Notes under the pieces: generated by a model | The model's database searches: none | What the model was told of the DNA's origin: nothing | Seen by the model: only the letters and a program-made list of their open reading frames with translations | DNA from: Plumapathes pennacea | Taxonomy: Eukaryota > Cnidaria > Anthozoa > Antipatharia > Myriopathidae | Length of the DNA: 64,000 bases | Assembly: GCA_964036295.1 (NCBI GenBank) | Contig: OZ038463.1 | Location: 18,153,069 to 18,217,068 of the forward strand | Direction of reading: 5' to 3' | Program-made: the position numbers and the translations under genes | Part shown: positions 4,730 to 64,000 of the stretch, in pieces | Numbering within the stretch: the first letter of the stretch is position 1 | Layout: each line of letters starts with the position of its first letter

Positions 4730-5474
4730 ACACACAAGTAACGAGCAATTCACTGGCCACATCTCGAGTTGTTTAGCGAAGTCAATTACGTCATCGCTTA
4801 GCACGTGATAATATGAACTAATCACCGTGTGCTGATTCTCGACCGACAAAAATAAAAATAAAAAAGAAATAAAAAAAAGATTGCTTTTTTAAGCTTGCTT
4901 GGGCCCCAGGCCCCCGCGAGCAATAAAATAAAACAAAACAAAACAATATACAAAAACGTACACAAAATAAAATGTGGTGCAAATACAAAAGCAAAAAAAT
5001 TACGTAAAATGCCGTGCAATAAGTTTGACTGGTTCCCGTGAGCTTGAGAACGATATCATTCAAACCATTGCGGAAATTCGTCATCCAAACCGACTTATTG
5101 GATCAGAAAATTCCTTCCTCCTCTCAAGCGTTTCTGATCCGCAGTCTGCAGTCTGCATTTTATGCGCAGTCTTCATTTTATACCCGTCTGCAGTTTGCAA
5201 TCTGCGTTTTATACTGACCGTCAAATTTACATCACGAGCGGAACAGAGTTGTTTAGTATCTGAATTTCGACAAGTATTTCGCTTCGTGTGACTCACACAC
5301 ACACTTTGAAACACTGTAAGATATGAAAAGAAACGCTAGGAGTCTAATCGATGAATGATATATGATCGCCAAAATCTTCCATCGGCATGCCGTAGGCCGT
5401 CAACATTCTTTACGATGGTTTATAGAGAATCTCAGTGCCTACCCTGCCGCTTTCATGTTGTGAGTCACTCATAC
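4730..5474. other. Intergenic with A-rich tracts and a short TCTGCAGTCTGC repeat
   Basis: The 4850-4990 stretch is A/T-rich and low in complexity. At 5138-5220 words like GTCTGCAGTCTGCATTTTAT recur three to four times with changes, a short degenerate tandem repeat. No gene, promoter or transposon end could be supported. Confidence 0.5.
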
Positions 5475-5567
5475 TGCATCAAATAATTCTTTGAAGTTGT
5501 TTCCTACATTCGGCAATCCACAACTATTGAAATATTCACAAAAAGAAACAGTTTTCTTTGACGCCAT
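5475..5567 (-). CDS. Candidate first coding exon of an unidentified gene
   Basis: On the minus strand AAGATGGCGTC (a YY1-type motif around the start codon) opens a 31-codon frame, MASKKTVSFCEYFNSCG..., ending GAT GCA|GTATGAG at a good donor in phase 0. A GC-rich upstream stretch supports a promoter. A possible next exon (acceptor near 5412, frame reading NVDGLRHADG and ending at a TAG) would give a very short protein, so I do not rely on it. The protein is not recognised. Confidence 0.35.
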
Positions 5568-6062
5568 CTTGCGCGCTCCGCACGAAAGTAGGTCAATTTT
5601 CGGTGGCGTCCCTTTCCCCCTTATTATCAGAATTGTATGCGCAGTTAGTGTATTTTGATTGGTTATTTGCATAGCTACCATGTTATAACAAAATAAAGAC
5701 AAAATATTTCCTAAGGGGTGGTTTTCGAGTTAAAATTTAGCGGCCTTTGTGGCCGGTTCAGGAAAATTAACATATTCCGCGGGCCGGTTTTGGCCGGTCT
5801 GGGTACGAAAGGGTTAACACTAGCTATTCATATGCCACATATTACTTTGCAAGTTTTCAAAAGATCTCAGTTTTCCATTTCAACTTTGTCAATCTGTTAA
5901 TTTAGGATTGAAAGGTCATTGCTCAAAATATTTAAGTCTACAGGAGATTCACATGAAGATCAATCTGGGCAGCAGTGTGCATCTGAAAGGAACAAATCCA
6001 AACACAAGAGCTACAGGTATTCACACTGTGCATGCTTATACAAATAGAAAACTGCAATAAAC

Positions 6063-6310
6063 CTTGTCCCAAGCTTCTTCTGTGGTCTGTAAGCAACAAA
6101 AGATCAGTCTTATTAGAATGTGCCAAGATGTACTATCATTATTATACATGCACATAGAATAAACTATATTCACTACATGTTTACCAGAGTGCAGTTTATT
6201 CTGTTGTACCGGTTATTAAAGTCCCTCTGTACCTCAAGGATATGTCCAAAAATGGGGTTTGTGGCTGCATTTGAGACAAGAATATCAATTCCTCCATATT
6301 GTTTCAGGGT
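6063..6310 (-). pseudogene. SDR reductase fragment (DHRS4-like), two exons
   Basis: Exon 6233-6310 encodes TLKQYGGIDILVSNAATNP then IFGHILE, flanked by CTGCAG| and |GTACAG. Exon 6063-6086 (24 nt) encodes TTEEAWDK between TTACAG| and |GTTTAT. These match the NAD(P)-binding region around the NNAG-like motif of DHRS4-type short-chain dehydrogenases: the strand GGIDILVSNAA, then the helix after FG. The following exon (around 5945-5980) is only faintly recognisable (IDLHVN) and meets a stop. The TGxxxGIG nucleotide-binding exon and the YxxxK catalytic exon were not found on either side. It is therefore read as a gene fragment. A functional gene with very large introns cannot be excluded. Confidence 0.6.
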
Positions 6311-46263: not shown

Positions 46264-46512
46264 TGTAACGAGCGGCGGTTACAAAATAGTCGTCGTTAAC
46301 GTAACAGAACTTTATTGCGACTGCACGCGGCAAAGACTACAATCAAAAGACGAACAGGAATGTTCGTGTTGCATAAAGTAAAGGTGCATTGTCCATTGTC
46401 TGAAGATACTAAAGTTACTAATTGGTTCTAGAGGCAGAGATCACGCGATATTAAGAACTGTCAGTGAAATGACATAAGATGCTTATTAAACGATAATGTT
46501 GCTATCGTTACA
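46264..46512 (-). repeat. Gypsy 3' LTR
   Basis: Begins and ends TGTAACG...CGTTACA, so the termini are themselves inverted. One mismatch to its partner (46493 region: ACGATAATG against ACAATAATG). Confidence 0.95.
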
Positions 46513-46579
46513 TCCTCCCTTGTTTGTATTAAAGGACTAAAGCTAAAAAATCGAAACAATAAAGCGGACTATAGGAAGT

Positions 46580-48514
46580 TCAAGACATTTGAAACTCCTT
46601 GTAGCGTGCTGGCAACGTTATAGTGCGCTTGCTGCGGCGAACTGGCGCTTCAACTGGCGGGGTTTCGCTTGAAGCATCTTCGGGGGCTGTGGGAGCATCC
46701 GGGGGCATAACCGGGGGCATGTTACTGACATGTGTGTCAGTGTTGTCGGCTGTTTCGCAGGGTTGTGCCTCGGGTTGTCTCGCTACAGCTTCGAACTGTG
46801 CGTCAGGCTCAGGAGTAGTCTGGTACTGCTCCGGCGTTAAGCGCAGTTGGCGGCGGTTTCTGCGGTAGGTCGAGCCTTGGCACTCGACCAGGTAGGAACG
46901 AGGACTCATGGCCTTGATGACTTGCGCTAGTGTCCATCGGTTCGCACAGCCACCAGACGTGTCGCTCGGGAGTTTCATCCGCACGACGCTTCCTGGGAGC
47001 AGTTGGCTCAGGCTTTTGCTCTTCCGGTCATACTGCTGGGCTTGCCTGTCTTTAGCCTTATGGAGTTGCTTGACCGTGGTCTTTCGGTCAGGGTCAGGCT
47101 GAAGCAGGCTTGGGGACAGCGTTAGCAGGGTTCGGGTCCGTCTACCGAACATTCGCTGTGCAGGCGATGAATGCATTGACTCGCTAGGAGTATTGCGGAA
47201 ATCCAACAAAGCCAGATATACGTCGGACTTCGACTCGGAGGCTTTGGTCATGATTGACTTCGTCGTTTTCACAGCATTCTCAGCCTTGCCGTTGGACTGA
47301 GCGTAGCGGGGTGACGAGGTCACGTGGGTGAACTGCCATTGCTTGGCAAATGCTGCAAATTGGTCGCTGCTGAATTGAGGGCCGTTGTCAGACACTACCG
47401 TGTCTGGAATGCCGTATCTAGCGAAGTGCATTCGCAGTTTGGTAATGACTTGCGATGCGGTGGTGGTTGTCAGGTGGTCGACCTCAGCGAAATTGGAGAA
47501 GTAGTCCGCAGTTACCAGGTAGTGCTTGTCACCTAACTGGAACAGGTCGACGCCAACGCGGGACCACGGGCGTGTCGGGATTTCGTGAGGTAGGAGGGGC
47601 TCGCGGCACTGTTCTGGCTTGAACGTGTTACAAATTCCGCACCGCGAGATGAAGTCTTTCACCTCCTGGGTCAATCCTGGCCAGTAGAAGACTTCTCTGG
47701 CTCTGCGCAGACAGCCTTCTGAGCCCAGATGACTGCTGTGCAGCTTTTGCATCATCAGAGGTCTCAGGCTGTTGGGAATGACCACGCATTGGCCCTTGAA
47801 CAGAAGACTTCCTTGAACGGTCAGCTGATCTCGGAAATTGAAGTATGGCCGGGCCAGGGGTACAACGGCAGCACGGGAACTCGGCCATCCGTTCAGGGTT
47901 ACTCGTGATACGGCAAGGAGCTCAGCATCCAGTAGTGAAGCCTCAGCAATATCCTTCATTACAGGCTGCGCTACTGGTATATCTTCGGCCGTGTTGATTT
48001 CCTGTAGCTCGACAGAGAAAGCGTTCTCTTCAGCTCTGTTTCCTTGGTTGAAGGGCAAATAGGCGCGAGATAGGGTGTCTGCGATATACATCTCTTTGCC
48101 TTTCTTGTAAGTCACGTTGATGTCGTACTTCTGGAGACGTAAAAGCATGTGTTGCAAGCGTTTGGGTGCTGCGTGTATCGGCTTCTTGGTGATACTCTCC
48201 AGGGGCTTGTGGTCAGAATCCACGGAGATCTGTCTGGCATAGACGTACTGGTCAAACTTCTCGCAGGCGTAGACAATAGCGAGGAGCTCTTTCTCGATCT
48301 GTGCGTAGTTGCGCTCTGCAAGAGAGAGAGAGCGCGTGATGCGTAGGCGACTGGCTTCCCGTCCTACAAGAGGGTAGCGCCCAATCCGCCTTCGGATGCA
48401 TCGCACTGTATCGTAACTGGTCGTGTCACGTCGTAGTAGGCCAGTACTGGGGCTGCAGTTATCAGCGACTTCACACGCTCGAGTGCACTGCTGTGCTGCT
48501 CTAACCAACACCAC
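46580..48514 (-). pseudogene. Gypsy RNase H and integrase region
   Basis: From SLAERNYAQIEKELLAIVYA the frame is open to the stop at 46580. RNase H remnants (VDSDHKPLESI, ADTLSRAYLP) come first. The integrase follows with its HHCC finger (HSSHLG ... CGICNTF) and DDE core (VDLFQLGDKHYLV, VSDNGPQF, SNGKAENAVK), then a GPY/F-type tail (LLPGSVVRMKLP, WTLAQVIKAMSPRSYLVE) and a Pro/Glu-rich end. It is separated from the RT frame by a TAG where Gln is expected (about 48362) and a shift in a CTCTCTCT run (about 48315-48325). Confidence 0.9.
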
Positions 48515-49600
48515 TCGACGTCACGGTGCTCTAGTTGTCTTAGCGGCTCGCAGATTGTCGACAGATGCGGCAGGAACTTCGCAAGATAGTTCACCATGCC
48601 CAAAAGTCTCTTTAGTGCCGTCAGGTCTGTCGGAGGTGGCATTTTGGTGATGGCCTCCACTTTAGCTGGATCTACGGCCAATCCATTGGGGGTCAACAAG
48701 TGTCCTATGAAAGGAACTTGCTGGAGGCGTAACTGGACCTTTTCAGCATTCAAGGTCAAGGAGAACCGGCGGGCTCGTTCCAGGAATGCCACTAGGTTTT
48801 TGTCATGGTCCTGGGTTGCTTCCGCTACGGTTTTTCCGAATCCGACGAGGAGGAAATCATCGGCGATAACTTCCACTCCTCTCAGGCCCTCAGCAATGGT
48901 GTTGGCGCGACGCTGCCACTCCTCAGGAGCTGAGTTGATTCCGAATGGCATGCGGAGCCAACGGAAACGTCCAAATGGGGTGTTGAACGTAGTCAGGTAA
49001 CTGGACTCTTCATCGAGCTTGACCTGCCAGAAACCGGATTTGGCATCAAGGACAGAAAACACTTTGGCATTGGTGAGGCGTGTGGCTACCTCTTCCAGCG
49101 TGGGCAGTGGGTAGTGAGGCCTCTGGATTGCTTTGTTGAGGTCCCTTGGGTCCAGGCATATTCTTACGGAGCCGTTCTTCTTACGCGCAACGACCATGCT
49201 GGAGACCCATTTTGTTGGCTCTGTGACTGGTGCAATGATCCCGTCTCCGACCATGCGCGTCAGTTCCTCTCTAACGGTCTCTCTGAGGGCGACCGGGACT
49301 TTCCGCGGCGCATGAACGACAGGGGGTACTGCTGGGTCCACCTGGATGTGGTATTCGCCAGGCAGGGTTCCCAATCCTTCCAGAACGTCCGGGTACTGGC
49401 TAAGGACATGATCTTCTTTGACCTTGCGTGACATTGCTGTCTTGCGTGAGGCCGTCACAGGGGGGTTGTTGTCGGGCATTTCCGCTGGTTCTTGCGTTGC
49501 CGTGTTTAGCGTGTCACAGTCTAGAATTTGCACGAGTTTCAAATCCAAACAAGATTGAAGGCTAAGTAGTGGCATCACCTTAGATCGCACTACAATAATC
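48364..49600 (-). pseudogene. Gypsy reverse transcriptase region
   Basis: The RT motifs read PTKWVSSMVVARKKNGSVRI, CLDPRDLNKAI, FSVLDAKSGFWQVKLD, FGRFRWLRMPFGINSAPEEW and the active site VIADDFLLV, then the RNase H start TIQCDASEGGLGATLL. The frame ends at a TAG within the RNase H. The frame change from the protease is near 49600. Confidence 0.9.
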
Positions 49601-50781
49601 TCAGTTTGTGAGATGCCCCATTGCGCTGGACGTTCAGCCAGGCCTGTCCAAGGGGCTTCACTTCGGCCTTATTGTGCATTATTAGACGCGTGGCGGTACG
49701 TTCTAGGGCCGTGCACGCCTCGTCTCCTGTTGCGCGCACGTAATTGGCATATGGCAGGATGTTGACTGAGGCGCCAGTGTCGAGTTGAAACGACACTTTA
49801 TCCGCGTTGTTGACGTAAAGTGTCACTAGCGCCTTTGTCTTGCCATTGTCATTTGCGCTGTTGATCATCTTCACATTTCCGATGTCTACATCCTCAGCGT
49901 GAATAAAATTCTGAACGTGCCGACCAGAGCGGCACATTTTGGCGAAATGTCCGCGTTTTGCACAATTCCTGCATGTTTGTCCATGTTGTCTTGTCTGCAG
50001 GGTGTTTCCGTCCGCAATTACCACAATCGCGAGCGTCACGCGACAGAGCGGAGGAGTTCGGCGTGCGTCTGGGGCACGCAATCCTGGGCGTAGACTGTTG
50101 GAGGTCAGGCTTGTGGCCTTGTTTCTTGTGTCTCTCGGGGCCGCGTCGTTTCGATACAGCATAAGTCGACGCCTCGGTCGATAGAGCTTTTAGCTGTTCC
50201 TGGGTCGCTTCGGAGGCTCGGCACAGCGCGTCCATTTTCTCTAAAGTTAGCTTGTGCTTTCGAAGGAGTCGTTCACGGAGTTTATTGTCCGTGATTCCAA
50301 ACAACAGACGGTCTCGCAGTATCTCGTCAGGAGTGATTGTCTCGAAATCACACCCGGCAGCCAGATCTCGGAGAGCAGTCCTGTACTGGTTATACGTTTC
50401 CCCAGGCTGTTGTTGTCTCTTGTTGAATCTGTAACGTTCGAACGGTACTTGCTTGTGAGGGCTGCAGAAATCTCTGAACTTCTGTAGGACAGGTTCCACC
50501 TTGTTCTTGTCAGCTGCATCGGCCCACTGGAAGTTACTGTAAACCTTCCTAGCTTCAGCGCCGATGACTGTCATGAGGGTTGACACTCGCCGTTTTTCTT
50601 CCTCTTTGTCGAGTTGAATAGCGTATGAGTAGAAGGTCCACGCTTGTTCCCATTCTTTCCACCGGTCTGCTAAGCCATTAGACTGCATGTCCAATGGTCC
50701 AGGTGCTGGGAACGGTAGAGCCGTTCTAGTGGCTACCGGAGCGGTTGATGTTGAGGCGGTGGATGTTGAAGTTGAATCCAT
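49590..50781 (-). pseudogene. Gypsy gag and protease
   Basis: The gag starts at 50781 (MDSTSTSTASTSTAPVATRT), just after the primer-binding site. It has a helical capsid part (QQPGETYNQYRTALRDLA) and a first zinc knuckle (CGNCGRKHPADK). The second knuckle (CRNCAKRGHFAKMC) and the aspartic protease (VSFQLDTGASVNILP) are in another frame (49590-50162). A small deletion between the knuckles (about 49985-50005) is likelier than programmed frameshifting because it falls inside the knuckle pair. Confidence 0.85.
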
Positions 50782-50791
50782 GCTGACACCA

Positions 50792-51040
50792 TGTAACGAG
50801 CGGCGGTTACAAAATAGTCGTCGTTAACGTAACAGAACTTTATTGCGACTGCACGCGGCAAAGACTACAATCAAAAGACGAACAGGAATGTTCGTGTTGC
50901 ATAAAGTAAAGGTGCATTGTCCATTGTCTGAAGATACTAAAGTTACTAATTGGTTCTAGAGGCAGAGATCACGCGATATTAAGAACTGTCAGTGAAATGA
51001 CATAAGATGCTTATTAAACAATAATGTTGCTATCGTTACA
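50792..51040 (-). repeat. Gypsy 5' LTR
   Basis: Partner of the LTR at 46264. As the 5' LTR on the minus strand it would hold the promoter. Confidence 0.95.
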
Positions 51041-51045
51041 GATAG

Positions 51046-51568
51046 GTTTGGACCTGACAGTGTTTTAATTCTTTTAACATTCTCTCATCAACATATATGC
51101 AAAACAGTGGTGACTTCTTATGCTTTAATGTTCTTAGCCGCACAACAGATATATCTTGTACCTATAGGGCTGGTACAAGTTTTGCGTCACAAAGTACGTT
51201 TTTAAGGATAATGCACATTTTGATCTGCCAAACCGTTCAGTGAATTGATAACGATTACACTCTGACAGCACAAGTTTGAGCTTAGATGAACTTGGAATGC
51301 ACTTCTTAAGGTATGGTTTGACAGCATCTCGAATTATTCTTGTCTTTCTAAATAATTTGAACACTTTCCTGTAGGGAATTCTGGAAGCTTCTCTTTCACG
51401 TTTCTTTCTAGAATGCAACCCATGTGTAGAAACAAGCCTTACCCTAGACGTCCTACACATCTCCATTTCATCTGCATGCAAAACAGAAGCGCTTGCTGGA
51501 TTATCAGTTGGTATTTTTAGAAATGATCCCTGGTCTAACGTCTTCCAATCTATTTTGTCTTTTTCCAA
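51046..51568 (-). pseudogene. Helentron N-terminal region upstream of the Gypsy insertion
   Basis: A 144-codon frame (51134-51568) contains SRKKREREASRIPYRKVFKL and VLSECNRYQFTERFGRSKC. A short continuation in other frames reaches the Gypsy insertion at 51045 and then the 2A motif beyond it. No domain is recognised; basic composition suggests nucleic-acid binding. Assignment to the Helentron rests on collinearity across the insertion. Confidence 0.45.
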
Positions 51569-52397
51569 AATAGCTTTTTCCGCAAAATCGGGTCATTTCT
51601 GCAATATTTTTCGGCATCGCTCCGCTAAAAAAGGCTTTTTTCCTCGTGTAAAACAGATTGAGCTAGAGAAAAATACTAAAAATGTCAGAACGAGTCATCG
51701 GACTCTCCAAAAGTGCCACGAAAACAGCGGAATCGGGTATTATTAACACAAACCATTTAATTTGATTTTTAGAGGAACGTTGTTCAGCTTAAAATATTTC
51801 AACCGAATACCATGGTATTTTCGCTGAACAATCAATTGCTTAAATATTTCCTGAATTAAATAGTACCATAATTGCAGCAGCTCTAGTTTTCTTCCTAAAA
51901 TTCAGTACAAATTGACCTTAAATTCTGTTTAACTCTCCAAACTATTGAAAAATTATCTGCAGCCTGCATAAGAATCCATATTTTTGCTAAAACTCTACAA
52001 AAATGAAGACCATGCAAGTGATGCTTGACAGGTTCTGCAAGATGTGTACTGAGAATGTTTCAAAATCATTACAACATCCCTATTGCGGCCAAAAAACTTT
52101 AAACGATTTAAACTATCCCAGGCCGCAGAATTCTGCAATCCCCAAATTCTCCCAGGCCGCAGAAATTCTGCAACCCCCAAACTAATCCCAGGCCGCAGAA
52201 ATTCTGCAACCCCCAAACTTCTCTTAGGTCGCAGAAATTCTGCAACCCATCAAAACAATAACCTAAGAAAATCTGCTGGATTTGCTCTAATCCACAGGAA
52301 AAACTACAGAATCCTATATTGGGAAGAAAAAAGAAACAAAAACAAAAAAATATATACAAAAGGGACTTTTAGAGCATGGCAGAAACTCTGCCCACTG
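51569..52397. other. Intergenic between the Helentron and the ParB/methyltransferase gene
   Basis: This includes the 3' untranslated region of the gene to the right. The interval 52116-52248 is a separate repeat entry. Nothing else was recognised. Confidence 0.4.
52116..52248. repeat. Tandem repeat, 3.5 copies of about 39 bp
   Basis: The unit TCCCAGGCCGCAGAAATTCTGCAACCCCCAAACT recurs; each holds the palindrome GCAGAAATTCTGC, so each can form a small hairpin. Confidence 0.8.
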
Positions 52398-55300
52398 TTA
52401 GCTCTCGGATTCTCTATTGGTCGGCAAATCTGTGGCAAGTTCCAGTGCCAACCTCCTGAGCAGCTGTAGCTGAGCATCTTGTGTTGCTGTGCTTAGCCAC
52501 ACAGCATTTCTTCCTTGCTGGAGAGCAGCAATAAATCCACCTCCAGCATTGCTGTCTGCATCAGCAATGACATCTCCTTCTCTTGAAAGGTGCTTTATGA
52601 GCCATGAGAAGGCCTTCAGTGGGACATTATGAACAGCAGAACGAGATGGCTCAAGTGTGATGACGTTGTCCCCACCATATGTCAAGTGTCGTTCTGTCAC
52701 CTCTCGAGACACTGACCAATGCCCAACTACAAATGTAGTCAATGAATCATTGAAGAAAGGACCTGAGTAAAAGATTTTTAGTTGTCTTAATGAGAATATT
52801 GTTTGGAATTATGTTGTAATGGCAGCTAGCTGAGTGTAAAATGGTGGTTAAAAAGAGTTTTAGATACCCAGTCGAATTTACCTGTTTGCATGGCTATACT
52901 ATATTGATTTCCAGCTAAGATTGAGCTTTGAAATTACATTTTTGTAGTACACATATATACCTTGACTTCGCCTCGATGGCTTGTGTGGAACATAAAAGTG
53001 TGCAGTCTGTGTCTTTGTGGCTCCTGCTTTTGTCATCTGCCCTTTAACCTCCTTCACACCATCAATATGAGTGAAAATGACGACATTGAATAATGTAATG
53101 GCCATGAAGTTAAGACTAGAAGCAAGGTTGATGACCTTTGTGATGTCCTGTCAAACCAAAAAGGCAAGTAAAATCACTGTAAAACCACTTCAACTACAAT
53201 CTTAAAACTGTTTGAAAAACCTTAAGCATAACTCTCACCATCATTTTTAACCCATTTTTTCTGCTGGAATGATTGGATTACTTTGAGCTGTCTGTTGAGC
53301 CCATTAGCAAAAGGTTAATTAGTTAACTCATAAACACAAGACAACACGAGGAATGCAATGTTACAATACCCTGGAATCCTCCATCTGTCCTATCACAAGG
53401 AATGCTCCTCCAAAGTTTGGCAAATTTGTAAGTGCTGTTTGATCGACAGCCTCAAGTGATGAGCAAAAGACAGCCAGCCCTTGTGCTCCTTGTGCTCCAC
53501 TAAACAAGTTGCCAGTGCCAACCTCTCCATCACCAGGACCATTTCGCAATTTTGTGAGATGCCCAAGGAATGTCTGGAAGTCATGGGACTGTTCAAAACC
53601 TTTTCCCTAAAACAGAGCAGGCTTAGTTAAGCATATTTTCTATGCACTACAAAAATTCACATCGTCTCCACTTTCTGATATAAAACTCTTATATATATAC
53701 ATATATGTTTAAATTTCAGTATGATTAAATTTATGGATACTGTTCTTCTATGTTGTCGTCTTCCTTTAATTTATATTTAATTGTTATATACAATAAATAT
53801 TTTTTGATCTCCCAAAGTATTTTTCCATGTACAATCAAAGTTGCATCCCAAGCAATCAAATCCCACAAAACAAAATTCAACACCTTAACCTTTTGAACTT
53901 ACAGTAAATCTCAACAACTTCTCTGCTTCTACGACTTCTCCAAACTCTTGGCGAACTTCTTCCCAGTTCTGATCTTTGAGAAAGGTTACAATTGCCTCCT
54001 GGATTGGTTTTAGAGATTTGACTTCAGTGGCGGCTATGTGGAGTTCCTGCATACTCAATGTTTTGTTTACAACCTAATAAAGAACAACAAATAAAACTGA
54101 ACTGAGTCCAACTACTCCAGTTTGGTGGAGGCATGGTGAGCCAAAACTATGCTTTTTACAAGACTTTTTGTTGCATTTAAGAAAAAGATTTGCAAAAAAT
54201 ATGTTATTGTTCTTGGTTGTGGTAAGTGGGAGATTTATGACTTTTGTGGGTTAATTCAGATTCACAAGAGAGATCTATGTGAGTTTGAGGGTTAAGCGGG
54301 AGATGGAGGCCCACGTAACAGAGTTGGCAGGTCTGTTAAAATATGTTGTCTCTTCTGCTGCCAAACTAAAGCAAGCTTTACAACATGTACAGTGTACTGG
54401 CCTTAATTTCTATTCAGCATTCAAGTTCACTGTTGTGTAATGCAAATATATACAACTTATAATAATTTATACAATTCATAATAATATGCTGTTTTACATA
54501 CCTGGCCGAGTAGAAGGGTTCGGTCATCACAGTTTAAGCTACACAACGATTTGAATTGCCACTGCTTGAGTACTGGCTTCCCTTTCTTAACAATTTCTGC
54601 TGCCTTGATCTTCTGATCTTTCACCTCCCCATTTTCATACATAGAATTAATTGCCTCAAAGTGCCTCCAACCTTCTCCAGACAGCTGTGCCATCGTGAAA
54701 ACCTCACTGAGGTTCCTTTTCTGAAAATACATTAAATTCACACAAACATTGGCAAAAAAATCCAAGTAATGACTGTGAGACAAAACTTACAGTGTAATGA
54801 TATTAATCCCTCTGAAATGGTAAACCAACTGATGACAAAATGGTAAATGAAAGCAAACATGGATAGACCACCACACTTTTGCCAAAGTTTTTATCATAAG
54901 ATTAAATTATGATTGGGCATGTCCATTTCAGGACCACACATATTATATGCATAGCAAAACATAGCATACTTACAGGCTTGTCAATAAGGCTGGAACACAC
55001 ATCCCTCCAAGAATCAGCTGGCTGTGGAGGATCATCATGCATGTTCCCTTGAACTTGCAGAAGAAGCTGGATGCGACAAATCTCGACCTGTTGTAAGACA
55101 TTGACAGGTGTTTTGAAATACAATAAATGTAATTAGGGGAGAGCAAAAAACAAAAGAACAAAAAAGAAAAAAAAGTTTCAGATGCCTCAGGAATAATAAT
55201 CACCTCATCTTTATATTTGAGGCCATGGCGAAATGCACCAGTATTATTATGCATTGCCCCAAGCCACAGGGCTTCCTCGTCTGAAAGTCCAATGTACACT

Positions 55301-56309
55301 CTGGCTATTCGCCCGTGGAAGTTTATATTCTCTGGATCTTTTTCATGAAGTTCCTTTGTGGCAAGAGTAAGGTGTGTACCGCCAAGAACTTCATACTCAT
55401 ACTCATCAGCATTCTCCTCCTCAAATTCTTCCCGGCTAGAAATTCCTTTTACCATTACAAACAGAGGTTCGTAATTCCCTGCAGGTTAATTTTCAATGCT
55501 TGAGATCAACTGCTTCAGGAATTCTTTATCCACTGCCCTGATTTGCCTCTTCCTTGGTGGAAACACCAGCTTCCCAATGGGGATGAAACGGGTCTTGTCT
55601 GACAATTAAAAAAGGAAACCCTTAAGTATATTGTTTATCATTCGAAATGCACATACAACCGAAATTTTACATGGTTTTCAAGTGCTAAGGATCCAGTGTA
55701 CTGTGTATGACACCATTTAGGGGCCGTCGACATATTCATCAGTTCCCCACTTAATGTGGACAATAAGATTTAGGTGGATGTTAAGGTGAAGGGAGGGTTT
55801 TTTACCTTTAATGGTGAATATGTTAACAGCCCTTAAACATCGCCTATCTTTTACACATGTAAATAACATTTGAAAACAAATTTTGCAACAATTTCTTCAA
55901 ACCATTAAAAGATTAATCAGCTCCCAAATGTTTTTATATTTTATCTGTTGATCGAGTGCTGTATTATAATCAGTTAAAACAATACGTACACACCGAAAAT
56001 TTACTTACACTCCAACTGACAGTCATCACATTTCTTTTGTATTCCCTTCACGTGGGTTGAATCGCCACTTTTCTTTTTTTTTGAAGTGGGACGGGAGAAG
56101 AGAGGCGTCAAGGGTCGTTTCTCTCGTATCACGGACCCGGAAGCATTTCCTTGTTCATTCGCTGCTGGGTCGTCCAGTACAGGATCTGGGTTGGCACCCT
56201 CCGCATTTAGTCCTTGGATTTTATCGAGTATAGCACCCGCGATGCCTTCCGCAGTGCTCTCCCGAATGTTTCTAAATGCCCCATCACAGTCGAATCGGTT
56301 CAAGTAACA
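52398..56309 (-). CDS. ParB-like domain joined to a degenerate DNA methyltransferase fold
   Basis: Eight exons on the minus strand: A 56009-56309, B 55204-55598, C 54974-55087, D 54502-54720, E 53903-54073, F 53370-53606, G 52961-53147, H 52398-52762. All have GT-AG borders and agreeing phases, 663 codons in all. Exon A is acidic with a KKKK basic patch and CDDC; its start codon lies further upstream. Exons B-C form a ParB/Srx-type domain: RFIPIGKLVFPPRKRQIRA, EFLKQLISSI, YEYEVLGGTHLTLATKEL, ARVYIGLSDEEALWLGAMHN. Exons D-E are helical. Exons F-H resemble a beta-class N4/N6 methyltransferase: VPLKAFSWLIKHLSREGDVI followed by ADADSNAGGGFIAALQQGRN, where D-P-F-x-G-x-G would be expected. No DPPY-type catalytic motif is seen. 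One TAA (about 55486-55488) interrupts exon B in frame. Function unknown; catalysis unlikely. Confidence 0.72.
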
Positions 56310-56316
56310 CTACTGG

Positions 56317-57084
56317 ATAAGAACCTGTGAAAAACCTGTGAAAAACCTGTGAAAAACCTGTGAAAAACAACGTGACTCAAAAACACCCTCTGAAAAAACC
56401 TGTGAATTTTGCACTGCTCAATTTTGCAAAATTTTGGAACCTGTGAAAAACCATGTTAATTTTTAAAACCTGTGAAAAAACCTGTGAAATAAATTTCCTG
56501 AAAAAAACTGTCCAAAGTAAACCCATGAAAAAACCTGTGAAACCGACTGCCTGAGAAACTGCTTAAAGTGAACCTGTGAAAAAACCTGTGAAACCAACCG
56601 CCCAAAAAACTACTCAAAGTGAACCTGTGAAAAAACCTGTGAAACCGACTGCCTGAGAAACAGCTCAAAGTGAACCTGTGAAAAAACCTGTGAAACCAAC
56701 CGCCCAAAAAACTACTCAAAGTGAACCTGTTAAAAAACCTGTGAAACCGACTGCCTGAGAAACAGCTCAAAGTGAACCTGTGAAAAAACCTGTGAAACCA
56801 ACCGCCCAAAAAACTACTCAAAGTGAACCTGTGAAAAAACCTGTGAAACCGACTGCCTGAGAAACAGCTCAAAGTGAACCTGTGAAAAAACCTGTGAAAC
56901 CAACCGCCCAAAAAACTACTCAAAGTGAACCTGTGAAAAAACCTGTGAAACCGACTGCCCAAAAAAACTACTCAAATTGAACCTGTGAAAAAAATTGTGA
57001 AACAAAACTGCCTTATAAAACTGCTCAAGTGAACCTGTAAAGAAACCTGTGAAAAACCAACTGCCTGAGAAACTGTTACCAGAT
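56317..57084. repeat. Satellite array of alternating 51-bp units
   Basis: Two related 51-bp units alternate, CCGACTGCCTGAGAAACAGC... and CCAACCGCCCAAAAAACTAC..., each ending GTGAACCTGTGAAAAAACCTGTGAAA, giving a 102-bp higher-order repeat. The unit length is divisible by three and stop-free on the minus strand, so an apparent 168-codon frame of FHRFFHRFTL repeats results; it is not taken as a gene. Edges decay into simple CCTGTGAAAAA repeats. Confidence 0.9.
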
Positions 57085-57121
57085 GATCACATCACTGCAG
57101 TTCCAAGAATATTACAATCAG

Positions 57122-59331
57122 GGGTGTCTATAAAACGAAGACCGAAGACCGAAGACCCAAAAACGAAGACCCCTCTTTTTTTCTGTTGTATCATCATGAA
57201 AAGTCACTAAATGTCGTAAAACACAACTTATACAACGAAAGGACCATTCAGCGTTGAAATAACCAGGGTCTTCGTTTTATAGTTTACCCCCACCAAAACT
57301 ATAAAACGAAGACCCCCTCCAATTTGGCTCAAAGTTTCGTAAACAACCTTAAATGCGCTCAAAAACTACATTTGAGCAACCAAAAACACTAGAAACGCGC
57401 ATATCTTAGAAATTGATCAGGGTCTTCGTTTTATAGTTTACCCCCACCAAAACTATAAAACGAAGACCCCCTCCAATTCGGCTCAAAGTTTCGTAAACAA
57501 CCTTAAATGTGCTCGAAAACTACATTTGAGCAACCAAAAACACTAGAAACGCGCATATCTTATAAATTGATCAGGGTCTTCGTTTTATAGTTTACCCCCA
57601 CCAAAACTATAAAACGAAGACCCCCTTCAATTTGGCTCGAGATTTGTAAGACAATGTATAATGCGTTCGAAAACTACATTCACTAGAAACACGCATGTCT
57701 TAAAAATTGATCGGGGTCTTCGTTCACCATAGTTTGCCCCCACCAAAACTATAAAACGAAGACACCTTAAAAATGCGCACGGCTAAAAATACGCACACAT
57801 TTAAGTGCTTGCTGTATTTTGCGGAGAACAATGAGCAAGTAACATGTTATTCGATCATTTCCGGAAGCTCGTTTGGACAATAGGCAATGAATAAATAAAC
57901 CGGCAAATGAATAAGTCGATAAACCGACGCTGTGAGTGGAAGAACTAAAAAGGAAAAACACCGTATCTGAGGATATTAGTATAATTTTTGTCCTTGTCGC
58001 ATTGAATCAGCATTGAATCAGCACGCTCACACCTTTATTTAACGTTTCTCGCTACAAAAGTACTGCATATTAAAGAATCTGACACATCTGCTAAGCGTCA
58101 TGTATTAGCTGACACCCGGCTTTGTTCAAAAATGTATCATCATCATATCAGCGGAAACCTCGTGTTATCGAGGTTTCTTCTGGCAGTCCATTTAATATGG
58201 CTTCAAAACTACCATGTATCATACCTGAAAGTATTGACTGTTCGGGCATTTTTGTCTACGAAAATTCTTTGACAAAGAAGAAATCAGTAAAGGCAGCTTC
58301 GGTTCCGTATACACGGCCAATGTTCCGAGTGATGATGGTGGGCGCGGTGAGAAAGTTGTGATCAAGAAATTGCTCAGCCAAGACTTGGAAGTTAAGAAGA
58401 ACTTCGTCAAGAGGCAAGAATCTTACAGAATCTAAAACACGCAAACATTGTGAGTTTAAAGAGAATTTGCAATGCATCATTCGCCCTGGTAAGGGAATAA
58501 TTATGTCTTCTTTGACTCTGAGCCCTTTGGCGGCAAGACCAAAGTCAGCTTCCTCGAGGATTTTGTATCTTATGTTGGACTGCTTTGATTTAGGTTTTGA
58601 CAGTGCGCATTTGTACAAGAAAGTCTGCAAAGACATTGCCTTGGCCCTGGAGTACCTGCACGGCAAAATTGGAGGGGGTCTTCGTTTTATAGTTTTGGTG
58701 GGGGTAAACTATAAAACGAAGACCCTGATCAATTTCTAAGCTATGTGCGTTTCTAGTGTTTTTGGTTGTTCAAATGTAGTTTTCGAGCGCATTTAAGGTT
58801 GTTTACGAAACTTTGAGCCGAATTGAAGGGGGTCTTTGTTTTATAGTTTTGGTGGGGGTAAACTATAAAACGAAGACCCTGATCAATTTCTAGGATTTGC
58901 ATGTTTCTAGTGTTTTTGGTTGCTGAAATGTAGCTTTCGAGCGCATTTGAGGTTGTTTACGAAATTTTGAGCCGAATTGGAGGGGGTCTTCGTTTTATAG
59001 TTTTGGTGGGGGTAAACTATAAAACGAAGACCCTGATCAATTTCTAGGATTTGCATGTTTCTAGTGTTTTTGGTTGCTGAAATGTAGCTTTCGAGCGCAT
59101 TTGAGGTTGTTTACGAAATTTTGAGCCGATTTGCAGGGGGTCTTCGTTTTGTAGTTTTGGTGGGGGTAAACTATAAAACGAAGACCCTGGTTATTTCAAC
59201 GTTGAATGGTCCTTTCGTTGTATAAGTTGTGTTTTACGACATTTCGTGACTTTTCATGATGATACAACAGAAAAAAAGGGGGGTCTTCGTTTTTGGGTCT
59301 TCGGTCTTCGGTCTTCGTTTTATAGACACCC
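57122..59331. mobile_element. Foldback transposon with hairpin-array arms and a captured kinase fragment
   Basis: The termini GGGTGTCTATAAAACGAAGACC are inverted copies, flanked by the 10-bp direct repeat TTACAATCAG (57112-57121 and 59332-59341). The left arm (57122 to about 57765) and right arm (about 58677 to 59331) each contain four copies, about 150 bp apart, of a hairpin with a 20-bp stem GGGTCTTCGTTTTATAGTTT and a 10-nt loop ACCCCCACCA. The central 0.9 kb carries a protein-kinase pseudogene. Long, internally repetitive arms define foldback elements. A 9-11-bp target duplication with gene capture would fit a MULE (Pack-MULE-like) origin. No transposase is encoded. Confidence 0.85.
58198..58670 (+). 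pseudogene. Protein kinase gene fragment inside the foldback element
   Basis: From ATG 58198 (MASKLPCIIPESIDCSGIF) the reading moves by a one-base loss near 58263 to FDKEEISKGSFGSVYTANVP, with the glycine loop GSFGSV and the lysine in KVVIKKLL. A second shift near 58412 leads to EARILQNLKHANIVSLKRIC. After two stops come FLEDFVSYVGLL and VCKDIALALEYLHGK, just short of the catalytic HRD loop. The N-lobe and start of the C-lobe of a kinase of the kind found in cnidarian receptor or LRR-kinase families are thus present, without a catalytic site. The fragment ends at the right arm. Confidence 0.75.
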
Positions 59332-59341
59332 TTACAATCAG

Positions 59342-60740
59342 AACAAAAAAAGAACTAACCTCAATCAAAATTCACTGATCAAGTTTTTGTGATGTACATA
59401 CTAGCTCCCAGTTCAAACATTGCATATATGTAGCTTCAGTTTACAGTCTAGTTTGAGTTCGTGTTCGGTGGAGATTTGTTTCCGAGGAAGTAGATTTCAA
59501 ACGTGAAAACGGCCTGGTATATGCAGCAGTTTCTCCTCCAAAATCGTACATGTCCACCTCTTTTCACTGAATATTGCTCCATCAGGTATTCATATTCATC
59601 AGCTCAGTTAAGAGCCTTTAAATTGACTTGACATTCGCAAATATATTCACTCGTGGCAAAACACGCTGACAAAACAAAATGGCCGCCTGTTCCCTTAGTC
59701 ACATGTTGCATATTGACCAATCAGAAGCGCTATCTTTTAGGCGCCAAAATGCAAGCGCGGACGCGACGTTGTTCAGTGCAGTTTTTTCAGAACTCAAGCG
59801 AGGAGGGTTTCTTTCATCTTCGAGGGAAATTTTAACGCCTGTGGCAATGGGATAGCAAGGAATGAAGATTTCCCCAAATGTTTAATCATTCTTTGAATAA
59901 CAATTCATACATCACACCGTGAACGAAACAACTGGACAGAAAACAAGATTGGGACTTTTGAAGACAGCTTGGGAAGGCCTGCAGTCGACAGAGGAACCGA
60001 AGATGCGTTCAACAGACACACAAAACAATGGTTAAGGTCGGCAAATCATTACATTCCTGTGCATAAGTTTTATATATTTGGCACTGGTGTTTTAATAAAG
60101 TTAAATTTTCTCCAATGAACTGCACCTTTTGATATCTGTAAGTAGAAAGATCATTCAAGGCTTTCTGGAGTTATTCAATGTTTTTACGTTCTAGTTGTGA
60201 TGTTCTGGGCTTATTCCAGGCTTATACTCTCCAGGCTTAAAATTCCCGTTTTCCTGGTCTAATTCTAGGGCTTATTCCAGGTTTTCTGGACTTATTCCAG
60301 GTTTTTAGGTTCCTGGTTTAAACATGGGCTTATTCCATGATTTCCTGGCATATTCCAGATTTTTCAGTTTCTTTGGAAGCTTCATAATCTAAATGTATAC
60401 TAAAGGTATACTATTGATATGTGTAAAGTTGGAAAAACATCAATTCTACAGGAATTATACTTTGTGTATGTCATATACAAAAAGTATACTTCTTGTGGTA
60501 TATTTCGTGTACAAAATGTGTATACTATTAGTATATGTTCTTCCATGTGGTATACTAAATGTATACTACCAAGTGGTTCCAAATGACTACTACTAATAGT
60601 ATACATCAATAATACAGAATGTATACTTTGTGTATATACTGCAGATATACTAACACTATACATAAGGTATACATAGCGTAGTATACTTGATGTACATATT
60701 GCATACACTAAAAGTATAGTTCATTTTGTTAAGGGTATAT
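59342..60740. other. Intergenic with a likely promoter and simple repeats
   Basis: At 59640-59830 a YY1-type AAAATGGCCGCC and CCAATCAG sites in a GC-richer context suggest a promoter, possibly bidirectional, for the genes on either side. From 60150 to 60370 the word CTTATTCCAGG recurs seven times or so with variations. From 60390 to 60720 GTATACT-type words (palindromic GTATAC) recur more than twelve times. No coding exon was recognised. Confidence 0.45.
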
Positions 60741-60744
60741 ATGC

Positions 60745-61262
60745 TTTCACAGATTTCTCAAAAAAATTTACACCTGTGAAAAAACCTGTGAAAAAGGAGC
60801 AGACATTTTCACAGGTTTTCACAAAATCGGCACCTGTGAAAAAACCTGTGAATGTGTACGCTTTCACAGGTTTTCTGCAAAATTTCCACCTGTGAAAAAA
60901 CCTGTGAAAAAGGAGCAAAATTTCACATGCTTTTTCACAGGTTTTCACAAAATTGCCACCTGTGAAAAAACCTGTGAATGTGTACGATTTCACAGGTTTT
61001 CAAAAAGTTGAAACCTGTGTAAAAACGTGTGAAAAAACCTATGAAAAGATCGCAGACATTTGGAATTTTTTTCACATGTTTTTTCACATGTTTTATTTTC
61101 ACAGGTTTTTTCACAGAGATTTTCACATCTTTTGAAACCTGTGAATGTGTACGCTTTCACAGGTTTCGAAAAAGTCATACATGTGAAAAAACATCTGAAA
61201 AAACCTGTGAAAATAGGAATTCACAGGTTTTTTCAGCGGTTTTTTTTCACAGGTTTTTCACA
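60745..61262. repeat. Inverted-repeat array of CCTGTGAAAAAACCTGTGAA words
   Basis: Direct and inverted copies of the word alternate about every 60-90 bp, with spacers such as AAGGAGCAGACATT and GTGTACGCTTTCACAGG. The same word is the core of the satellite at 56317-57084, there in one orientation only. The region can fold into many hairpins. Confidence 0.8.
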
Positions 61263-61484
61263 GAAATATACAACAGGCTCCCGTGTAATATAGCCTCCCC
61301 CATCTATACATGTGGGAAGTTAGGAGAACACAAGAGTATCCTAAGGGAAACCACATATCACGTCAGCATGTAATATGCTCTTATCTTAGATGGTTATTTA
61401 GCCAATCAGAACGTGTGTAGTATCATAGTTATTTCATAAATACACATACACACAAGATTAAATCTAAAATATTTTTCTTTGTAG

Positions 61485-64000
61485 GAAAATCGTTTTACCA
61501 AGTGCACCGACTGCACCAAATACTAACTTGAGAAGGAAAAGACAATGCATAAAGGAAAGCGAGCACAGATTGATCACCTGCTTAAGATGCACCTAGACTT
61601 GGTTTGGTAAGTATGAAATTTGTCGAAAACTGAATGAACCATGTTAATATTACAGTGTCAATAATCACAAGGGTTTAACACTGAAATAGTATGCAATAAA
61701 AATAGGCAATATATACTCAAAATACTAAATATTGCAAATTTCCTATAAACCCATATATTTGTTCTCCAGTAAATCCAAGCAGGTGCAAGTTATAAAAACC
61801 TATGAAAAGTTGTTACTTTAGCAACATTTACAATAAGAAAAGCACTGTCTTGTACTAAAAGCACCAGGAAAGCATTGTGCAGGTGTGATTTACTTGCTAA
61901 TTGACTGCATTTATATTAATATAAAGTTAAAGTATTTTAGAGTGTACGTAGCTGTTTCATATACACATATGTATTGCTAGCCTTGCAATTTACACTATTT
62001 GTGTACCCAATAAGAGAACTCATGGTTGTTATATTTTCTTCTTGAAGGCAAGAGCGGAGGGTCTATTATCTCCATAGATACAAAACAAGGAAGTTCCCAA
62101 GAAAATACATGGCATGCATCACAGATGGGATGGATCAAAATACCACCAATGTGCCAAGTCTGAGACGACTAAGTAAGGCCATGTCTGCTCTATCCACTGT
62201 GGGCACTCGCCTATTGTCCACAGTGGACAAGGGCAGTATGGTAAAGAGGTATTTGGGTCTTTTGACTACTACCAGTGGCCACATGACTCAAACCTCACTA
62301 TCACAGTTCTCCTGGATGTACTTGCCAGGTGGTCTGAGGAGAACCAACTTCCCCCAGTTCTCTATCTACAGTTTGACAACTGTGTGAGGGAGAACAAAAA
62401 CAAGTTCATGTATGCAGTGCTAGCTCTTCTGGTTGAGTGCAAGATATTTGAGAAGGTACATGCAATTGCACCAATACCATAGAACCAAACCCAAGTAATT
62501 TCAAGTGGCTTTTGTGATTATACCCCAATTCATTCCTGAGAGTGCATGATTAACTTCAATTTTACATTTTATCATCCGATATATATATTATTATATGTAT
62601 AAGGAAGAATTTGGTAATAAGTTTATAATTTAAATTGTTAGTACTAGCTTCCTAAAATGGCAGCTGATGGAACTGGCAGTAATTTTATTGTCCAAACAGT
62701 TATACGTAAACATTTTCCTTCAGTGCTTGGGAGAATTTGTGTATTGATCTCTGGAGTGAAAGTGTCATGCTATTAGTATCATGCACTAATATTTATACTA
62801 GACAATCTCATTATTTATTATCTTATCTTTACTTTCCAATTTAGATCCGATTGAACTTCCTCCCAGTTGGGCATACACATGAAGACATAGACGCATTTTT
62901 TGGAGTGTTCTCCAAACATTTAGAGAAACAAGATGTTTACACAGTTGAAGGTACTTCAGTAATATGATTGATGTGCAATTGAATAATTATTAACTATGAA
63001 TAAGATAGTATCTAAGATGGTTGATAGATTGGGGTTTGTAGTATTAATGCTAAATAGGTGTTTAACAAAGTCAGATGCCAGTCCTAAGTGTGTACCACTG
63101 TACTCAATCCTTCACATTTGCAACATAATAATAACTATTAATAATAATTATTAATAATTATTAATAATTATTATTATACCCTACAGTAATATTAATCACT
63201 AATCTGGGTTGCAACAGTAAGTGTCAAAATCAATGCTGGAACGTAGTAGTGATTGTCAGTGTTGCAAACAACATTCACTCATGACACATAGGTCATTATT
63301 GTATCAAACTGAATAGAGTTGAGTTCAACCTTGAGTGTGTGCTAGTCAAATAGTAAATGACAAATGAATGTTGTTGTTTCAGAACTGTTGGAAGCCTTCA
63401 GGAAATGCATGAATCATCCAATACCAAAGCCGTTTATACTGCCAAATGCTTATGACATAAAGTCTTGGATAACGGAGCATACGGTAGAGATGCATGAACA
63501 CACTTTGCCAAAGTGTTTTAAATTTGAATTAAATGAAGATGGGAAAGCAGCAATGAGCTACAGAAACTGGAGCCACGAGCAATGGCAAGGTCCTTTGGTT
63601 ATTCTTAAGGTACATACTATGTCATTGGTTCATACATCAACTGGTTTGCAGTTCAGTTGACAGAGGCAGACATGCCAACCTAGAATTTGTGTAACTCCAG
63701 CAAGGTTATAATATTAAAAGCCACACAGTAAGCATTGTATATACTGTATTTCTAGCTTAGTGAGTGTGAGTGTGTGTTTGTGGCTTTTATGAGTGCATGC
63801 AGTATATTCCTCAACATATAGTGGACAGGGGATCATGTTTATTGAAACTTTGGCATTATTGCAATGCCACTTTTTGTACATAGTTCTGTCTTTTATTGCT
63901 TCTCATGTTATTTTTCATTTTTCACAGACTATGCCTCCTGGGAAACCACAACTAGTCCCTCTATCCCTAGTCAAATTAGACATGCCAACACTTGAGCGAG
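61485..64000 (+). CDS. Transposase-like protein (DUF7869-type), internal exons
   Basis: Exons: 61485-61606, 62048-62455, 62845-62950, 63383-63609 and 63928 to the window edge, all with AG/GT borders and compatible phases. The product contains RFTKCTDC, RAQIDHLLKMHLDLVW, YMACITDGMDQNTTNVPSL, VFGSFDYYQWPHDSNLTITV, LYLQFDNCVRENKNKFMYAV, RLNFLPVGHTHEDIDAFFGV and SYRNWSHEQWQGPLVILK. The D-N-C...ENKN and VGHTHEDID blocks resemble the RNase H-like DUF7869-type proteins found in many copies in cnidarians and other eukaryotes, probably transposon-derived. Two defects: TAA at 61524-61526, and a one-base loss in exon 2 near 62210 (its length does not fit the phases otherwise). The gene is divergent from the ParB/methyltransferase gene. 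Upstream exons were not found. Confidence 0.6.
63124..63178. repeat. AAT/ATT microsatellite
   Basis: An AATAATAATAACTATTAATAAT-type simple repeat in the intron between exons 62845-62950 and 63383-63609. Confidence 0.85.

Follow-up and report, generated by a model that had tools for sequence, protein, structure and literature searches.

Why should an animal genome carry an intron-split gene that joins a ParB-like domain to a degenerate DNA methyltransferase, a pairing familiar from phages? The question is raised by a gene in the window analysed herein, a stretch of 64,000 bp from contig OZ038463.1 of the anthozoan Plumapathes pennacea. From an altered S-adenosylmethionine (SAM)-binding loop and a missing DPPY motif, an earlier note on this DNA had proposed that the gene may have become a DNA- or SAM-binding regulator. 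That reading is partly supported; the gene belongs to a DNA transposon and is not an ordinary host gene.

The ParB-methyltransferase gene sits in a DNA transposon

The element starts at 51537 with a terminal inverted repeat (TIR; 5'-AACGTCTTCC) that begins AACGTCTTCCAATCTATTTTG and occupies 51537..51581 on the plus strand, and its inverted partner lies beyond the window at C2:18228845-18228890, so that some 24 kb separate the two element ends, which read AACG..CGTT. The four bases before the left end (GTCT, 51533..51536) are repeated after the right end at C2:18228890. The left end is sharp and common to the window copy and five copies with different flanks. A search of the genome (290 Mb, 24 contigs) with the end stretch found at least 41 places including the window, inverted partners among them; this is a lower bound, as 40 of 55 candidates were scored. 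Exact 4-bp target-site duplications (TSDs) flank four of six tested elements of lineage A, to which the window copy belongs (GTCT in the window, GAAA in the C1 copy, TTTG in C2 and AAGA in C5); three of the four bases fit in the C8 copy, and those of the C7 copy do not match. TIRs combined with direct target duplications identify a DNA transposon, and both were found here.

Superfamilies that make 4-bp TSDs include Sola, Ginger, Chapaev and Academ. The TSD length and the AACG..CGTT ends differ from those of IS3EU, whose fungal families have 6-bp TSDs and ends TAYGG..CCRTA, and the TSD length also differs from the 8 bp of Zisupton (KDZ), as described in PMC12730594. Position 51537 was also considered as the edge of a neighbouring long terminal repeat (LTR) element and ruled out, since the LTRs span 46264-51040 and other copies have the same end. 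That LTR retrotransposon has 249-bp LTRs that are 99.6% identical, and looks Gypsy-like by eye from its reading frames.

The gene lies on the minus strand, with seven introns that are all GT...AG, and splices to 1989 bp, or 663 codons, the last being a stop. It was predicted to have eight exons in perfect phase, which is true of its GT-AG exons, their phase and the terminal stop, but an in-frame TAA at 55486-55488, inside exon 2 (55204..55598, the ParB-fold part), means that the window splice is not a single open frame. Upstream of exon 2 is a remnant of the preceding exon (56009..56309), cut at 56309. Downstream are exon 3 (54974..55087), exons 4 and 5 (54502..54720 and 53903..54073), which encode a helical region after the ParB fold, and the methyltransferase-like part in exons 6 (53370..53606), 7 (52961..53147) and 8 (52398..52762). 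The 5' end is incomplete as well: the locus has no start codon, and a copy on contig C7 that is 96% identical matches it to 56308 and then picks up again at 61557. The N-terminal exons, which in the Exaiptasia homologue P0001 (721 aa) encode about 75 residues, are among what is missing. P0001 and the window splice are 46% identical in an alignment that spans 95% of the query (E 3.9e-178), and because homologues align across nearly its whole length, the window gene is far beyond chance. The gene is thus real, and the window copy, with its exon 2 TAA and truncated 5' end, is dead.

The interval 56309..61556, which holds minisatellites, is unmatched in the C7 copy and replaces ~1.3 kb there (el7 4889-6187, N-terminal exons). 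The window element has probably been swollen by this insert and by a second of about 9.5 kb within the right array, deduced from right-array places at both C2:18218487-18218787 and C2:18228286-18228478. Within the stretch replacing the 5' part of the gene are a minisatellite of 51/102-bp units (56467-57075) and, at 57122-59331, inverted arrays built from a 154-bp unit.

Partner gene and palindrome arrays

Head-to-head with the ParB-methyltransferase gene, on the plus strand at 61557..63996, are pieces of a DUF7869 (PF25273) gene that runs past the window end (61557-61607, 62046-62234, 62246-62371, 62345-62458, 62845-62964, 63346-63657 with one stop, and 63928-63996). The structure model of DUF7869, a domain widespread in animals, has an RNase H-like topology, and the 50 VIA rows among the matches listed were all DDE transposases or retroviral integrases; its fold and place suggest that it is the element's transposase. 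Searches with tblastn gave at least 37 matches for P0001 (62 of 66 candidates scored), which form 20 loci, and at least 66 matches for the DUF7869 query P0014 (66 of 128 candidates scored), which form 27 loci. DUF7869 lay 1.3-6.9 kb from the ParB-methyltransferase gene at 6 of the 20 loci, against a chance expectation of about 0.4% per locus, and the two were head-to-head in all six (window, C7:5.11, C1:10.10, C10:9.75, C2:29.87, C4:23.72). These paired loci span four diverged lineages, with ParB exon identities to P0001 of 42-61%. The 14 unpaired loci comprise C10:11.88, C2:4.22, C2:23.2, C7:5.65 and ten decayed copies that belong to a single lineage and are scattered along ~4 Mb (C4:22.0-26.3 Mb). 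The matched stretch of every one of the ten contains a TAG and a TAA, so they are perhaps one dead copy multiplied. At C4:5.74, outside these counts, the last exon stands beside a DUF7869 end. From the last exon, a 46-bp fragment also recurs as inverted pairs ~2 kb apart (C5:22581941/22583945, C4:17796280/17798285 and others), perhaps short derivatives holding the last exon in both arms.

For the stop-free copies that the earlier note had advised looking for, lineage C gives a candidate. Its element, 15,283 bp long (C4:23715363-23730645), is bounded by a perfect 40-bp TIR that begins AACGCG and by the duplication TCTA. No stop occurs in the eight coding segments seen of its ParB-methyltransferase gene, seven of which came from tblastn, whereas the N-terminal segment was recognised by eye. 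On its DUF7869 side we saw the C-terminal part only, with one TGA, and no more of the domain in the next 3.8 kb fetched. The window and C7 copies, with stops in both, have a ratio of nonsynonymous to synonymous substitution rates (dN/dS) of 0.55 over 631 codons. Between the window copy and the C10 copy, over 528 codons, dN/dS is 0.14, with a saturated dS of 2.4; the C10 copy has a stop outside the codons compared. These ratios fit genes that would have been kept during lineage divergence and later died in place.

Tandem arrays of perfect palindromes stand beside the ParB-methyltransferase gene, between the genes and the TIRs, in all three lineages examined of the four. The palindromes are GCAGAAATTCTGC in A, ACAGAAWTTCTGT in B and TCAAAGATCTTTGA in C, that of the distant lineage C being different. 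In the window the array of 36-bp repeats is at 52107..52256 on the plus strand (Tandem Repeats Finder: 52116-52248, 3.8 copies), with exact palindromes at 52159, 52195 and 52231. Four sites have at most one mismatch where 0.17 are expected, and none of 100 shuffles reached four. In lineage A the arrays repeat every 36 (35) bp, at both ends of those elements whose two ends were seen. Those of lineage B, seen on the ParB side only in the C2, C10 and C4 copies, are mostly of 36 or 35 bp, and places like C1:22574078 and C1:22577621 hint that B elements, too, may have arrays at either end. In lineage C about 24 units of 68 bp begin ~17 bp beyond the final coding segment that was seen, with about 35 units at the opposite, DUF7869 side, and most units carry the palindrome. 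Exact tandem pairs numbered 168 (A) and 357 (B) genome-wide, and 0 and 0 in reversed-pattern controls. Across 15 arrays (148 units) the consensus core CAGAAATTCTG was identical in all 15, a figure partly built in by picking units with a loose core, while likeness of the spacers was 63% over all arrays and 46% when A was compared with B.

Protein folds, lost motifs and a possible role at the transposon ends

Two protein searches returned 9 and 12 homologues, from Exaiptasia, Montipora, Nematostella, Acropora, unnamed metagenome records and one MMETSP transcript, which may come from a protist or a contaminant. Homologues with an organism name are all from Anthozoa. One record, P0009 (Acropora cervicornis), joins the ParB part of the family to DUF3504, a tyrosine-recombinase-like domain, and is possibly a fused gene model.

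The division into a ParB half and a methyltransferase half is borne out by the predicted structure of P0001, but not by sequence profiles. The first Foldseek row of this model was ParB 7bnk (E 4.5e-7, probability 1.00), with a low TM-score (0.41 by target) and a root-mean-square deviation of 13.5 because the parts are placed differently, and the model also matched beta-class DNA methyltransferases; the family thus appears to have both a ParB/sulfiredoxin fold and a beta-class amino-methyltransferase fold. When the window splice and 10 members were scanned with Pfam, neither a ParB nor a methyltransferase family was hit (ParB in 0 of 10), and hhalign to a Spo0J sequence gave no match (E 0.37). 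PHROGs returned weak matches only, the best being phrog_3008 DNA methyltransferase (E 0.0038, 2 of 12 members), and among PDB sequence profiles RsrI methylase reached E 0.25 and 0.5. A PCNA chain in the same profiles (E 0.06 and 0.0026) was taken as chance, as it matched in three stretches with an independent E-value of 53 each. In phages tblastn gave one match (E 8, a DNA methylase), and an IMG/VR scan gave none.

The altered SAM-binding loop and the missing DPPY motif are real and not peculiar to the window copy. A DPPY-type motif is absent from all 13 homologues, some of them partial, and from the window copy. FxGxG is absent from the motif I stretch wherever this is readable, that is in 6 of 13 homologues and in the window (ADADSNAGGG, exon 8). 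As judged from sequence, the family therefore seems to lack the catalytic and SAM-binding motifs of beta-class amino-methyltransferases. At the P-motif site of the ParB fold, GGTH followed by L or V stands in the window and in 10 of the 13 homologues, the region being missing from the other three, and other lineages have GEAHN, GGLHN and GGAHN; the arginine of GxxR was not found, with the register against GxxR set by pattern.

Active sites lost with folds kept, an array beside the gene in each of the three lineages examined and a different palindrome in the most distant of these point to a DNA-binding helper for the transposon ends. We lean, by a small measure, towards a ParB-methyltransferase without catalysis that attaches to the palindrome arrays and pairs or shields the ends. 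The element would thus bring along its own non-enzymatic DNA-binding protein, whose ParB-type helical region would recognise the palindromes in the way that parS is recognised by ParB proteins, which bind this palindromic site and gather DNA (PMC12704722). Bridging or coating of the two inverted arrays would then leave the ends paired for the transposase, or shielded, and the methyltransferase fold would stay as a scaffold without catalysis. The palindrome evidence has two limits. Conservation of the core is inflated, since the array units were picked by a loose pattern of that core. Moreover, out of 5000 shuffles of the consensus unit, 24 (A, window), 0 (B), 33 (C) and 83 (A, C8 right) were at least as palindromic as the real one, so that a single unit is weak evidence. 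Tandem Repeats Finder independently gave the same units for the window and L012, and the evidential weight rests on the repetition of arrays in separate lineages, not on one unit. A wider and more tentative proposal is that a distinct group of animal DNA transposons (DUF7869 transposase, AACG ends, 4-bp TSD) runs a eukaryotic counterpart of ParB-parS, in which arrays of each lineage's own and a matching dead ParB-methyltransferase would pair or cluster the ends.

In the main rival reading the arrays would instead be binding sites of the DUF7869 transposase, with the ParB-methyltransferase serving otherwise, for example to counter silencing as proposed for the TET/JBP genes of fungal transposons. 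Subterminal repeats are often bound by transposases, and 21 of the 27 DUF7869 loci have no ParB-methyltransferase gene nearby. DNA-modification genes do get captured by transposons (PMC12730594). Against this, each palindrome is a dyad, and one of the arrays has as its neighbour a gene for a fold known to bind dyad sites; the short C8 and C3 copies keep arrays beside the gene's last exon, which is, though, also the element end; we regard transposase sites as rather unlikely. Very improbable is a domesticated or ordinary host gene caught several times by transposons: Exaiptasia, Montipora and Nematostella have homologues with gene annotations, and some copies have no detected DUF7869 neighbour, but the head-to-head position beside DUF7869 is identical in four lineages, many copies are decayed, and the open lineage C copy is itself flanked by TIRs with a TSD. 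Least credible is an active methyltransferase or nickase with non-canonical motifs, for which the apparently retained methyltransferase fold and a report that a Bacillus cereus ParB-methylase nicks DNA (PMC5512222) could be cited, but against which stands the lack of DPPY, FxGxG and the P-motif arginine.

Known systems and other elements in the window

Fusions of a ParB fold with an N6_N4 methyltransferase have been described in phages (PMC12704722), and as far as the P0001 model shows they share the domain order of the animal gene. Its phage matches were H9YSJ8 and A0A6J5MMM5 (596-607 alignment columns, E 3e-11 and 7e-11), both annotated ParB/Sulfiredoxin from uncultured Caudovirales phage. 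Unlike these, the animal transposon gene is intron-split, has lost the catalytic motifs and has an extra N-terminal domain, and by sequence it matches phage records only at chance level. ParB-parS and plasmid iteron systems likewise have a ParB-fold protein with a helical region and palindromic arrays near the gene, but here no ParA was seen, the P-motif arginine is absent, the sites lie at both transposon ends, and array binding is only predicted. Fungal TET/JBP DNA transposons also combine a transposase with a second gene of DNA-modification type, but one of another fold, in other superfamilies and with an enzyme thought active (PMC12730594). The bdelloid rotifer entry 8s9n was deposited as a DNA cytosine-N4 methyltransferase, with no ParB part in its title.

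In the literature searched, which was mostly open-access with Repbase outside it, no such element was described by title or abstract start, and no paper mentioned DUF7869. A survey of the ParB fold across life searched eukaryotic proteomes with Pfam PF02195 at its cut-off and names sulfiredoxin as the commonest eukaryotic form (PMC12704722). A search of that type would miss the family of the window gene, because the members scanned match no Pfam ParB model. If the proposed role is true, a bacterial centromere-type device operates on a eukaryotic transposon and DUF7869 would gain a role; the proposal is directly testable, because every lineage pairs a protein with a palindrome.

Elsewhere in the window, at 639-1937, 17-22 kb, 24.3-27.5 kb and 40-45 kb, reading frames resemble, by eye alone, mobile elements of Harbinger, MULE, BEL/Pao and helicase-bearing types.
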